DNA from: Limnomonas spitsbergensis | Lineage: Eukaryota > Chlorophyta > Chlorophyceae > Chlamydomonadales | Direction: 5' to 3' | Assembly (NCBI GenBank): GCA_037349105.1 | Contig: JAYJMM010000117.1 | Span: 3,472,001-3,536,000, forward strand | DNA length: 64,000 nt | In this document: piece after piece, positions 3,504 to 62,132 of the stretch | How positions within the stretch are numbered: position 1 is the stretch's first letter | Layout of the letters: each line of letters opens with the position of its first letter | Translations under genes and position numbers: made by a program | Notes under the pieces: generated by a model | The model's input: only the letters and a program-made list of their open reading frames with translations | The model's database searches: none | What the model was told of the DNA's origin: nothing

Positions 3504-3533
3504 GCAATATGGGCGCTAGCTTGGACTGTGAGC
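3504..3533 (+). repeat. Duplicated acceptor plus exon head (ATG16-type gene)
   Basis: GGGCAG|GCAATATGGGCGCTAG repeats the acceptor and first ~30 nt of the true exon at 3637 (GGGCAG|GCGATATGCGCCCTGG), 133 bp upstream. The copy lacks the rest of the WD40 blade, so it is a decoy 3' splice site rather than a usable exon. Confidence 0.75.
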
Positions 3534-3636
3534 GTGGACTGTGAATTATGTAGATACACCTAGTGCCAGATAATACCACACTCTCTGATCACGACTGATC
3601 TCTCTTTCTTACTATGCTCTGCTTGCATTTGGGCAG

Positions 3637-60100: not shown

Positions 60101-62132
60101 TGCGGAATTATAATTCATTCCATTATACCATTTATACGGTTTATCCGAGTTGACAACGGTCTTTGTACAGTGATTCCTTGGCCTGCCTTTGGTCAGCCTC
60201 TGGCCCTATACCAGAGGCTGACCCCCCCTCCCACCCCGCATGTACCCCACCCTACCCCACCCCACCCACCCCACCCCACCCCGCTGCCGCAGGTCTGCCT
60301 GATTCCGTTTTACGGGGAGAAGGCCGAGGTGCTGCTCCCGCCCTCAAAGTCGATTGCCATGGCGCGGAGCCGTCTGGACTCGCTGCCCTGCGGAGGAGGC
60401 TCCCCGCTCGCCCACGGCCTCTCAACAGCCGTGCGCCTGGGCATCCAGACGTTTGCATCGGTGCGTCCGCTGGGTGGTGAGGCAGCTCCTGCGCCATTTT
60501 TTGTTTTATAATGCTGAAGTTATATTATTGCAGTTGGTTGTGGGGGCCTAGTACAGGTGGTGGTGTGGATGACACGAGCATGCAGGAGAGAGAAGAGCAA
60601 GATATACCGCACCTCCTCTTGCCAGCCCTCTGCCACCTGTCCCTTCCCTGATCTCTATCCTTATCATATGTGTTTTCAGTTTTCTTTGTTTTTCCTACCG
60701 AACTGAACATTGGCCCAAAAACCTTTCTTCCCCTTCACAGGGAGACGTCGGCCGCATCATGTGCGTGCTAATCACGGACGGTCGCGCGAATATTAGCCTG
60801 GCCAGGTCAAATGAGGACCCAGACGCCATGGGCCCTGAAGCGGTCAAGCCAAGCGGGGACCAGCTCAAGGATGAGGTGAGGGGACGAGGACGTAACTCCA
60901 ATGTGCATTTGTATGGGCGCAAAATCGCATTGGGTTGCAGCCGGGCGGCCACCGTTGGGTTGAAAGGGACTGATCCTTTCTCGGCCTCAGCCTAGGCAGT
61001 AGGGCTTGCTACACTAGACACCTTGGTCGTAGGCTGTGATGTAGCTGAATTGTAGCTGAGGCACCTGACATTATACATTGATATGACTGGGGAGGGGAAG
61101 TGGATTTGTCTCCTTGCGGGTTCCAGTAGATGCATGCCACTCAGAGTTGCATTCATTTAATCATTGCACAAACACCGGTACAGGAATTACTAGGTAGGTA
61201 GGGATGAGCTGGAGGTAGGGATGAGCTGTAGGTAGGGATGAGCTGGAGGTAGGGATGAGCTGGAGGTAGGGATGAGCTGAAGGTAGGGATGAGCTGGAGG
61301 TAGGGATGAGCTGGAGGTAGGGATGAGCTGGAGGTAGGGATGAGCTGGAGGTAGGGATGAGCTGGAGGTAGGGATGAGCTGGAGGTAGGGATAAGCTGGA
61401 GGTAGGGATGAGCTGGAGGTAGGGATGAGCTGGAGGTAGGGATGAGCTGGAGGTACCATAGGTCACGGCCAATGAAAACTGACTTCATAGTTTATAATTG
61501 CATTTCCGGCACCTTTACACTTGAGGAAGGGTTGTGCTGGTTATGTCAGTCTTCAGTGATGTATGTCCAACAAAGTACATTCCTGGAGGGAGGAAAGAGA
61601 GGAAGGATGCCCCTCTGCTCAAGAATAAAAAAACAGGGTGGAGTGCGTCTGTTGCTCTTGCGGCGTCTCCCACCCAACACTCGTGCCTGCCTGAATCAGT
61701 GTTGCTGTTGCTGAACCCTAGGGCCTGAACCCTTACCCCGGCCCCCGTATTAGGTGCGCGACATGGCAAAGAAGCTGGGCGCAGCTGGCCTGCAGCTGCT
61801 GGTCATCGACACTGAGAACAAGTTTGTTTCGACTGGCTTCGCTGAGGAAATTGCCAAGGTGAGTGGCAGCAGCAGCCTGTAATGAGGGGCAGCTGATTTG
61901 GTTTAGGAGGGGTAAAGGTGGTGTGAGGCTCTGTCCGAGGTTGAAATCAGCGAAGCAGAGTTTTTTAGTTGGGAGGGTTCAGATGGTACAAAAAACCACA
62001 CACTCACCGCTCGTGTTCCCCTCGCTTTTGCAGGCTGGTGGCGGCAAGTACTACTACCTTCCAAACGCCAGCGATGCGGCCATTGCGATGGCTGCATCTT
62101 CAGCCATGGCATCGGCGAAGATGGGGAACTAA
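48148..62132 (+). CDS. CHLD: Magnesium chelatase subunit D, chloroplast
   Basis: Seventeen exons close in frame: 48148-48343, 48482-48536, 48881-49001, 49840-49944, 50348-50507, 51557-51698, 52627-52837, 53724-53846, 54403-54585, 55022-55096, 57182-57312, 58758-58896, 59441-59608, 60293-60460, 60741-60875, 61754-61858, 62034-62132. That is 2316 nt, 771 aa. With ChlI and ChlH the product inserts Mg2+ into protoporphyrin IX, the first committed step of chlorophyll synthesis; ChlD is the AAA+ platform joining ChlI to ChlH. Seen: a Ser/Arg-rich transit peptide; LPLTAVVGQDDIKQALLLGA; GRRGTAKS (120-127); LYVDEINLLDD (~224-234); CRPLLIATYNPEEGSLREH; a Pro linker (~414-425); a Glu-rich linker (433-457); GRYIKPMLPK; RLAVDATLRAAAPYQKL; integrin-I-domain MIDAS DASGS (573-577); LPCGGGSPLAHGL; ITDGRAN; LLVIDTENKFVSTGFA; KYYYLPNASDAAI. 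Introns are 138 bp to 2.1 kb and packed with junction-derived repeats. Confidence 0.97.
50015..50078 (+). repeat. Duplicate of ChlD exon 4 end
   Basis: GAGATTGTGTATGGCAGCAG...CCTGGAACCTGGGAG repeats GAGATTGTGGATGGCAGCTG...CCCGAACCTGGGAA|GTAGGT of the exon 49840-49944. It lies 125 bp downstream, with substitutions that destroy the donor. Confidence 0.85.
50560..50900 (+). repeat. Array of ChlD exon 5 ends plus donors
   Basis: The exon ends ACGGTGTTTCAACCAG|GTGTGAAG at 50507. The segment recurs about five times (GATGGTGTGTCAACCAG|GTGTG near 50621, ACGGTATTTCAACCAG|GTGTG near 50664, then near 50756, 50808 and 50858). Spacers are rich in GAGAGAG and TTGAGAGA. Most copies retain a GT donor. Confidence 0.85.
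51700..52215 (+). repeat. Array of ChlD exon 6 ends plus donors
   Basis: The exon ends GGCATCAGCATCAGCCACCC|GTGAGTGG at 51698. Copies of CATCAGCATCAGCCACC|CGTGATTGGTGG follow at about 51773-51797, 51829-51848, 51891-51912 and 51938-51958, then decayed ones to about 52195. They are interleaved with AACCCTTAACCCTAAACCC-like text resembling plant-type telomere repeats. The first copy also includes GTGGTTGAGCGCAAGGGCATC from further inside the exon. Confidence 0.9.
52870..52985 (+). repeat. Two partial duplicates of ChlD exon 7
   Basis: CGAGACATCGGTGATAGG at about 52882 repeats the exon end AAGACATCG|GTGAGAGG (52837). GACGCCGCCATGCGCTTCCA...GACC-GGCGATG at about 52938-52985 repeats an internal exon segment (52759 onwards) and ends ...TTCAAGGTGACTG, again with a donor. 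Confidence 0.85.
53345..53723 (+). repeat. ~38-46 bp acceptor-like array before ChlD exon 8
   Basis: About nine units of GCCTCCCCATGCCCTCCCTC + CTCCCGGCTCACAGCCCCC run up to the real acceptor CCATGCATCCCCTCCAG|GTC at 53723. Most units contain CTCACAG after a long pyrimidine tract, that is, a plausible 3' splice site. Confidence 0.88.
54273..54344 (+). pseudogene. Duplicated ChlD exon 9 head with stop
   Basis: CATGTGCAG|GTTGCGAAGGCGTGTGCTG begins a near-copy of the first 66 nt of exon 9 (54403 onward) with its acceptor, 130 bp upstream. The frame is intact (VAKACAALEGRETLNEDDLW) but ends QAI then TAA at 54342-54344, and no donor follows. Inclusion would truncate ChlD before the Pro linker. 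Confidence 0.9.
55097..55850 (+). repeat. 55-bp array of ChlD exon 10 end plus donor, 12 copies
   Basis: Exon 10 ends AAAGAGGAGGAGCAACCTGAG|GTGAGC at 55096. The same exon end with GTGAGTGCGCTTATATAGGG recurs with junctions at 55160, then every 55 bp to 55765. A final variant has GAGCGGCCTGAG twice and GAGCAGCCTGAG|GTAGGG at 55845. After each donor the exon frame meets TAG in CTTATATAG. The spacer TTAGGGTTCAGG resembles telomeric repeats. Confidence 0.95.
56195..57181 (+). repeat. 44-bp array of complete acceptor sites before ChlD exon 11
   Basis: Roughly 22 units of GTCCCCCCCTTCTACCTCTC + ACCTCCCCCCTCTACCCC + CCACAG precede exon 11. The last CACAG, at 57181, is the true acceptor. Every unit is a full polypyrimidine tract ending in CACAG|GTCCC, so about 23 near-identical 3' splice sites lie in series. 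All forward frames are open, and one continues into exon 11. Confidence 0.95.
57345..57690 (+). repeat. ~60-bp degenerate repeat (GGGGCATGCCCATGGCTTGCC)
   Basis: About six diverged units combining AGGCAGGAATGCRAAGG and GGGCATGCCCANGGCTTGCC. Located early in the intron after ChlD exon 11. Confidence 0.7.
57808..58545 (+). repeat. 33-bp G-rich satellite, about 22 copies
   Basis: The unit is GGCATGGGGGGTCCTGTTGA + CTGGGGGCAGGCG. The unit length is a multiple of 3, so several frames stay open on both strands (up to 439 codons). These are artefacts within the ChlD intron. Confidence 0.95.
58664..58700 (+). repeat. Decoy copy of ChlD exon 12 acceptor and head
   Basis: CGTCCACAG|GGGCGGTACATCAAGCCC repeats the true junction at 58757 (CGTCCACAG|GGGGCGGTACATCAAG) 86-87 bp upstream. 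It has one G fewer, so its use would shift the reading frame. Confidence 0.92.
58969..59022 (+). repeat. Duplicate of ChlD exon 12 end plus donor
   Basis: AGGCTGCGCCAGAACCAGGC...GTCAAGCTGCGCAAG|GTGAGG copies the last ~48 nt of exon 12 (ends 58896) with a donor of better consensus than the true GTGTGT. Confidence 0.92.
59609..59860 (+). repeat. ~83-bp array of ChlD exon 13 end plus donor
   Basis: The exon end GAGAGCTACACAAGCAGGGACCAG|GTGAGG (59608) recurs with junctions near 59692 and 59775 (GAGAGCTACACAAACAGG...CCAG|GTGAGG). A decayed copy with more exon sequence (GATGAGGCTGTTGGCTGAGA) ends near 59876. Confidence 0.92.
61190..61457. repeat. 17-bp satellite, about 16 copies
   Basis: The unit is GGTAGGGATGAGCTGGA with single-base variants (CTGTA, CTGAA, ATAAG). 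It lies in the ChlD intron between exons 15 and 16. Ser/Pro/Leu/Tyr-rich open frames on the minus strand are artefacts. Confidence 0.95.

Follow-up and report, generated by a model that had tools for sequence, protein, structure and literature searches.

One of the described ways in which introns are gained is tandem duplication, as in the model of Hellsten et al. (2011) given in an excerpt of PMC4974935. The same excerpt describes an intron of the potato RdRp gene for which the duplicated unit spans the intron-exon junction, and in Drosophila novel intron positions have been reported to arise through tandem (exon) duplication (PMC2891723, in excerpt). Here we consider a stretch of 64,000 nucleotides from the chlorophyte alga Limnomonas spitsbergensis (GenBank assembly GCA_037349105.1, contig JAYJMM010000117.1, positions 3,472,001 to 3,536,000 of the forward strand; hereafter the window, with coordinates counted from its first letter), in which the splice junctions of several genes recur as copies within the adjoining introns.

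These copies are comparable to the intron gains modeled by Hellsten et al. (2011) in that a short tandem duplication supplies a spare splice site and the splicing out of one copy would preserve the protein; in that model, however, a duplicated exonic AGGT provides both sites of a new intron, whereas the copies in the alga repeat one junction within an intron. The potato RdRp unit likewise carries an intron-exon junction, a polypyrimidine tract and a 3′-splice site, but it is a single case, in which an intron was created and exon sequence was added, while the alga shows copies at 44 of 268 junctions. As in the Drosophila cases, duplicated coding sequence turns intronic and is free to decay; those cases, however, involve proto-splice sites inside exons and new intron positions, whereas the alga has intronic copies beside their source. 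Intronic minisatellites are a general class of head-to-tail arrays, and arrays of this form are present here too (for example 55 bp × 12.5 and 44 bp × 23 in one intron of the magnesium chelatase D gene, ChlD, intron 8), but in the alga the units often include a splice site along with exon sequence, and many cases amount to one or two decayed copies. Introners, by contrast, disperse among unrelated genes, whereas the three junctions of the alga that were searched match their source intron only. Among the titles and abstract beginnings listed by word searches of the open-licence literature, no report of widespread junction-spanning duplication inside existing introns was found, and the excerpted text of the L. 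spitsbergensis genome paper (PMC11228838) makes no mention of junction copies. Such copies are of interest because small intronic duplications decay past recognition, which makes their contribution to intron length difficult to measure; at an exon edge, selection keeps one side of the duplication fixed, and the intronic copy could thus be recognized, dated against the exon and counted.

Frequency of Splice-Junction Copies

In the window, 34 introns were modeled by spliced alignment to homologs: 14 in ChlD, 8 in ACLA (ATP-citrate lyase A), 2 in VDAC and 10 in PDK (mitochondrial pyruvate dehydrogenase kinase). Outside the window, 32 loci were fetched and 100 introns were modeled, those of two CCT7 paralogs (L030 and L031) and one compact chaperonin gene (L032) from Pfam exon matches together with a trained exon finder, and 76 more at 23 loci by the exon finder alone. 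This predicted set omits L003 and L004, both strands of which look coding, as well as exons for which a better one overlaps on the opposite strand, pairs with a coding score below 8 and introns at locus ends; one of the retained introns (L001, 65 nt) is probably false. The exon finder was tested on its own training genes only, where it found 32 of 34 donors and 33 of 34 acceptors and predicted 27 of 34 introns exactly, and it over-predicts (141 introns in the window). Locus L003 (G000:C14:568000-577500) has unusually dense coding potential on both strands and few introns; it could belong to a mobile element, to a different organism or to a region poor in introns.

Copies were located by local alignment of each junction against its own intron, direct copies being sought within approximately 415 nt. 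A copy with a score of at least 15 and at least 8 exon nt was present at 44 of the 268 junctions of all sets (an ATG16 gene fragment stands outside this count and adds two junctions). For comparison, probes taken from junctions of other genes gave a copy in 10 of 3,798 cases, and windows located 60-112 nt inside exons in 4 of 268. The decoy splice-junction copies described in the initial annotation are therefore real and extend beyond the window. Every copy found corresponds to a single junction and is intronic: donor copies comprise the exon end and the intron head, and acceptor copies the tract and the exon start. Tandem exon duplication would copy an entire exon together with its two splice sites; the segments extended here, from a search that was centered on junctions, hold a single junction with 15-86 nt of exon. 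The distance between source and copy has a median of 121 nt and a range of 48-376 nt (46 copies), with 34 of the 46 at 50-160 nt, and the exon part of the copies retains 68%-100% identity (pooled, 85%). With a slightly larger probe and a threshold of score 16 with 8 exon nt, copies were detected at 17/68 junctions in the window, 16/36 in CCT7, 0/12 in the compact gene and 13/150 predicted junctions (two being too short). Copy density thus varies strongly between genes, and L030 carries copies scoring at least 16 at 11 of its 18 junctions. A general donor bias was considered and rejected, since the 12 donors and 4 acceptors of the window (34 each) face 5 and 11 in CCT7 (18 each) and 7 and 5 in the predicted set (76 each).

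Probable Growth of Introns by Tandem Duplication

Junction copies favor longer introns. They were found at 0 of 24 junctions in introns shorter than 150 nt, 4/62 at 150-300 nt, 7/78 at 300-500 nt, 13/48 at 500-800 nt and 20/56 above 800 nt; the comparison of 4/86 junctions below 300 nt with 33/104 at 500 nt or more gives a Fisher p of 1.8e-6, which is too small because junctions of the same gene are not independent. When the CCT7 paralogs are compared, copies that exceed the shuffled maximum occur at introns 1, 4, and 9 in the longer paralog only (641 vs. 255, 652 vs. 194, and 756 vs. 445 nt), although intron 6 goes against this pattern, its copy being in the shorter member (479 nt with, 687 nt without), and the compact gene L032 has no junction copy by the probe test (0/12). 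Together with the match of three searched junctions to their own intron only, these lengths support the claim that introns grow by tandem duplication. The mean intron length is 788 bp in L. spitsbergensis and 229 bp in Chlamydomonas reinhardtii (PMC11247165, in excerpt), and the process that leaves junction copies may matter for genome size.

We favor, with moderate confidence, an explanation in which introns grow partly by ordinary tandem duplication of units of 50-160 bp, placed near-randomly along genes, and in which the units that cross an exon edge survive harmlessly. A unit crossing a donor or an acceptor would place a spare exon end and splice site within the intron. Edge-crossing duplications are likely to survive because the outermost, original splice site would remain in use, leaving the protein unchanged and the intron longer by one unit. 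The spare exon end would then decay freely in the intron, and, because the source exon is frozen by selection, junction copies would stay recognizable longer than intron-only duplications and would be the visible part of a process that lengthens introns in general. Each junction copy can probably be read as a fossil of intron growth. If this explanation is true, the rate of intron growth by small duplication could be measured from a single genome, and the copies would show when spare splice sites are tolerated.

The CCT7 paralogs bear on the age of the copies. Their corrected fourfold-site divergence is 0.77, and at acceptor 7 a copy and its spacer are apparently shared by both paralogs: 10 sites match copy to copy, 2 match the copy to its own exon and 1 is crossed; on these site patterns, the duplication is likely to predate the paralog split. 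The two sites of agreement with the own exon at this acceptor may reflect gene conversion between exon and copy. At acceptors 2 and 8, each copy resembles the exon of its own paralog (8 to 1 and 4 to 0), which suggests independent later duplication, with exon-copy conversion as an alternative, and acceptor 5 gives no clear pattern (counts of 1, 1, and 3 crossed). Spaced templated insertion was also considered as the origin of the copies and rejected: the copied segment is shorter than the repeat distance in 16 of 18 extended copies, yet two cases that were read through fit plain tandem duplication. The missing part between the segments at ChlD donor 10 reads as indel-rich intron, and the copy at CCT7 acceptor 7 is a 108-nt unit with a homologous spacer.

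Junctions and Interiors Compared

According to the initial annotation, the duplicated units consistently straddle the splice junction. This is not supported: 33 of 109 duplication families cross a junction and 76 do not (30%; expected 26.3, P 0.067). A comparison of junctions with interiors, of the kind that the annotation proposed, was made on 104 introns, leaving out introns shorter than 250 nt, and its outcome varies with the complexity filter, as the family counts vary with the definition of the duplication unit. Unfiltered, interiors are duplicated nearly as often as junctions, at per-intron rates of 0.120 and 0.154 (difference 0.033, confidence interval (CI) -0.006 to 0.076); pooled, 419 of 1,528 interior windows are duplicated, a figure inflated by arrays. 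A stricter filter yields no junction excess (0.035 vs. 0.043), with 71 introns and few probes left. With the two compact-gene families set aside, a junction is crossed by 32 of 107, where 24.3 are expected if the unit equals the repeat distance (ratio 1.32, P 0.03), and a simulation in which the exon alone is frozen gives junction copies a 1.3-fold detection advantage. By subtraction, one ungapped family of the compact gene crosses a junction, though the probe test gives none there. Simulations of uniform placement with three unit ranges let 28%, 27%, and 39% of the detected families cross a junction. Families of at least 90% identity, the recent ones, cross in 6 of 25 cases (5.3 expected), and repeat distances are similar in junction and intron-only families (medians 97 vs. 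75.5, Mann-Whitney p 0.42). By rotation, the predicted introns have 5 donor and 2 acceptor hits vs. 4.1 each, and an earlier predicted set had 4 donors and 1 acceptor of 62 vs. 3.3 each. Geometry and visibility thus account for much of the junction pattern.

Several results nevertheless weigh against near-random placement. Under a mild complexity filter, the gap between junction and interior doubles (0.154 vs. 0.077; difference 0.077, CI 0.032 to 0.120), and it persists in the CCT7 and predicted introns alone (difference 0.045, CI 0.003-0.091); without any filter, a junction excess of 0.042 (CI 0.004-0.087) is seen in the loci outside the window once the threshold is set to its highest value. 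When distances above 200 are not taken as units, the 32 crossing families face 17.8 expected (ratio 1.80, P 0.0001), and when the unit is the detected length they face 9.7 (ratio 3.29, P below 0.0001). Families with a distance of 40-200 cross 26 times vs. 15.4 expected (P 0.001), and 18 times vs. 11.4 outside the window (P 0.013). Window donors are hit 10 times vs. 4.6 by rotation (P 0.0075), while acceptors are hit 2 times vs. 4.6. In addition, 6 of 25 young and 27 of 84 old families cross a junction, a small trend that is the reverse of the simulated one (e.g., 34% and 23%), and the exon and intron parts of aligned copies are equal in identity (84.9% and 83.5%), so that the frozen-exon effect is not directly visible. 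A residual edge preference of approximately 1.4-fold (1.8 divided by 1.3) is possible and fits the middle unit definition; a larger preference is possible under the most conservative one.

Other Explanations

A mutational process seeded at exon edges was one of two causes offered in the initial annotation. Slippage or break repair might act, for example, where the donor head is rich in G or the acceptor tract rich in C, and junctions would then be duplicated more often than interior intron. Much of the observed excess matches the 1.3-fold detection bias (1.32 among families), interiors are duplicated nearly as often as junctions when unfiltered (0.120 vs. 0.154), and seeding is mostly not needed, although a residual edge preference is possible. 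The excess of 1.5-1.8 that appears when distances above 200 are discounted (1.54 outside the window), or of 2.9-3.3 with the detected length as the unit, would fit such a process, as would the excess of junctions over interiors in the mildly filtered probe test, the donor peak of the window by rotation, the apparently independent copies at one junction in the two CCT7 paralogs and the 11 of 18 junctions of L030. On the contrary, the predicted introns show no excess by rotation (5 and 2 vs. 4.1 each), the recent families cross about as often as expected (6 vs. 5.3), and CCT7 shows the opposite of the window's donor bias. On balance, seeding seems rather unlikely, while deserving real weight. 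The second cause, selection that lets only duplications with a regenerated splice site persist, is closer to the findings, since any edge-crossing unit regenerates the site automatically. A bolder view, in which repeated edge duplication is a major engine of intron lengthening, junctions are hot spots and introns ratchet outward leaving dated exon stubs, is doubtful, slightly more so than seeding itself.

Selection might instead have kept the copies as decoy splice sites with a regulatory or buffering role (alternative or poison splicing). The splice dinucleotide is retained in 36 of 42 copies vs. about 31 expected from the exon-part identity, but this surplus is slight and in part a product of the alignment, which runs across the junction; moreover, repeat distances are even modulo 3 (14, 16, and 16) and the exon parts range down from 100% to 68% identity. 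The copied splice sites decay about neutrally, the sequence gives no sign of decoy use or selection, and we regard this role as very improbable. An artefact of assembly or polishing is less probable still. Near-identical arrays are present and the published genome was built from PacBio continuous long reads (PMC11228838, in excerpt), but the copies have mostly diverged (85% pooled identity in the exon part), the arrays in modeled introns reach at most 2.3 kb vs. a read L50 of 33 kb (same excerpt) and one copy is apparently common to two paralogs. It would be most surprising, finally, if the copies belonged to a dispersed mobile family. Introners have been reported in about 5% of the species searched (PMC9860276, in excerpt), yet whole-genome DNA searches with three junctions, in which simple or very common words were skipped, match the source intron only (these searches also bear on the donors of ChlD introns 4 and 8 and of PDK intron 8). 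Ordinary tandem duplication along genes, with harmless survival at exon edges, thus remains the explanation that we prefer.

Junction Copies in Individual Genes

ChlD (48879..62117, plus strand) has clear copies of the donor junctions of introns 2, 3, 4, 5, 8, 10, and 11 and of the acceptor junctions of introns 6 and 9; if the acceptor array of intron 8, which is of low complexity, and acceptor 3, where the case is weak, are also considered, the total comes to 9-11 of 28 junctions. All of the following are on the plus strand. At the donor of intron 2 (49859..50091), the source 49859-49960 is followed by a decayed copy from 49990 (distance 131); at that of intron 3 (50487..50704), the source 50487-50548 is followed by a copy at 50643-50704 (distance 156), with another decayed copy in between. 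The donor of intron 4 (51661..51989; source 51661-51738) has copies at 51755-51829, 51829-51864, 51891-51921, and 51939-51989, and that of intron 5 (52823..52915; source 52823-52858) has one from 52880 (distance 57). At the acceptor of intron 6 (54247..54467), a copy with 65 nt of exon (54247-54338) lies upstream of the source (54376-54467). The donor region of intron 8 (55071..55821) comprises the source 55071-55123 and an array at 55136-55821 with a 55-bp unit, 12.5 copies and 99% matches, the consensus unit of which includes the exon end and GTGAGT; the acceptor array of the same intron (56171..57188; 44-bp unit × 23) ends 7 nt into the exon that starts at 57182. The acceptor of intron 9 (58650..58785) has a copy at 58650-58699 and its source at 58736-58785, the donor of intron 10 (58831..59018) has its source at 58831-58899 and a copy with 66 nt of exon and GTG at 58950-59018, and the donor of intron 11 bears an array (59581..59807; 83-bp unit × 2.7).

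In ACLA (17834..23789, plus strand), copies occur at acceptor 1 and donors 4, 6, and 7 (4 of 16 junctions), with a weak case at acceptor 2. The acceptor of intron 1 (18857..19003, plus) has a copy from 18857 and its source at 18945-19003; the donors, also on the plus strand, are those of intron 4 (21127..21357; source 21127-21159, 42-bp array 21168-21357), intron 6 (22415..22668; source 22415-22531, copy from 22552, distance 137) and intron 7 (22910..23011; source 22910-22953, copy from 22968, distance 58). For PDK (6856..17064, minus strand), where at least four introns had been proposed, the count is smaller, at 2-3 of 10: donors 7 (12803..12951, minus; source 12951-12907, copy from 12847) and 8 (array 11500..12229, minus; 97-bp unit × 7.5) are clear and acceptor 2 is weak. 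Neither does VDAC (45475..46813, plus strand) hold the junction copy ascribed to its acceptor tract, as its 23-bp array (46534-46674) ends 7 nt short of the exon at 46682 and is a pyrimidine-tract array. The ATG16 fragment does have the copies assigned to both ends of one exon (about 3637-3765; 3498..4006, plus strand): an acceptor copy at 3498-3534 of the source 3631-3667 (distance 133), and, on the donor side, copies at 3820-3880 and 3944-4006 (plus) of the source 3704-3771 (distances 116 and 235). Head-to-tail tandem arrays are present at ChlD 8, ChlD 11, ACLA 4, and PDK 8; many of the remaining junction copies have decayed and occur singly or in small numbers.

Gene Models and Other Features of the Window

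The ChlD model has 15 exons and 14 introns from a spliced alignment to P0242 (80% identity), and is without the N-terminal exon(s) and the last codons. PDK has 11 exons and 10 introns from a spliced alignment to P0152, and VDAC has 3 exons and its best match in Chlamydomonas eustigma (73%). The guide for the 9 exons and 8 introns of ACLA was a plant protein, and the family is backed by a search of solved structures. All modeled introns of the window are GT-AG with the single exception of ACLA intron 1 (18309-18983, plus strand), which has a GC donor and an AG acceptor. The identity of the ATG16 fragment is supported by a WD40 match, and the solved structure that fits it best is ATG16-1 (E 2e-19). 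Rfam at the gathering threshold gave no match in the whole window, nor did Pfam with three minus-strand coding-like open reading frame pieces (48174-48341, 35389-35517, and 26984-27097).

Large short-period arrays are located at 1-3081, 8965-11264, 42306-43093, and 57794-58517 (units of 34/72, 16, 30, 40, and 33 bp), and two of the large arrays lie within modeled introns, away from junctions. The gene neighborhood looks conserved: homologs of ChlD, VDAC, and PDK are closely numbered in Gonium pectorale (GPECTOR_46g251, 46g252, and 46g255), and those of ChlD and VDAC are adjacently numbered in Sanguina (WDW38_008752 and _008753).

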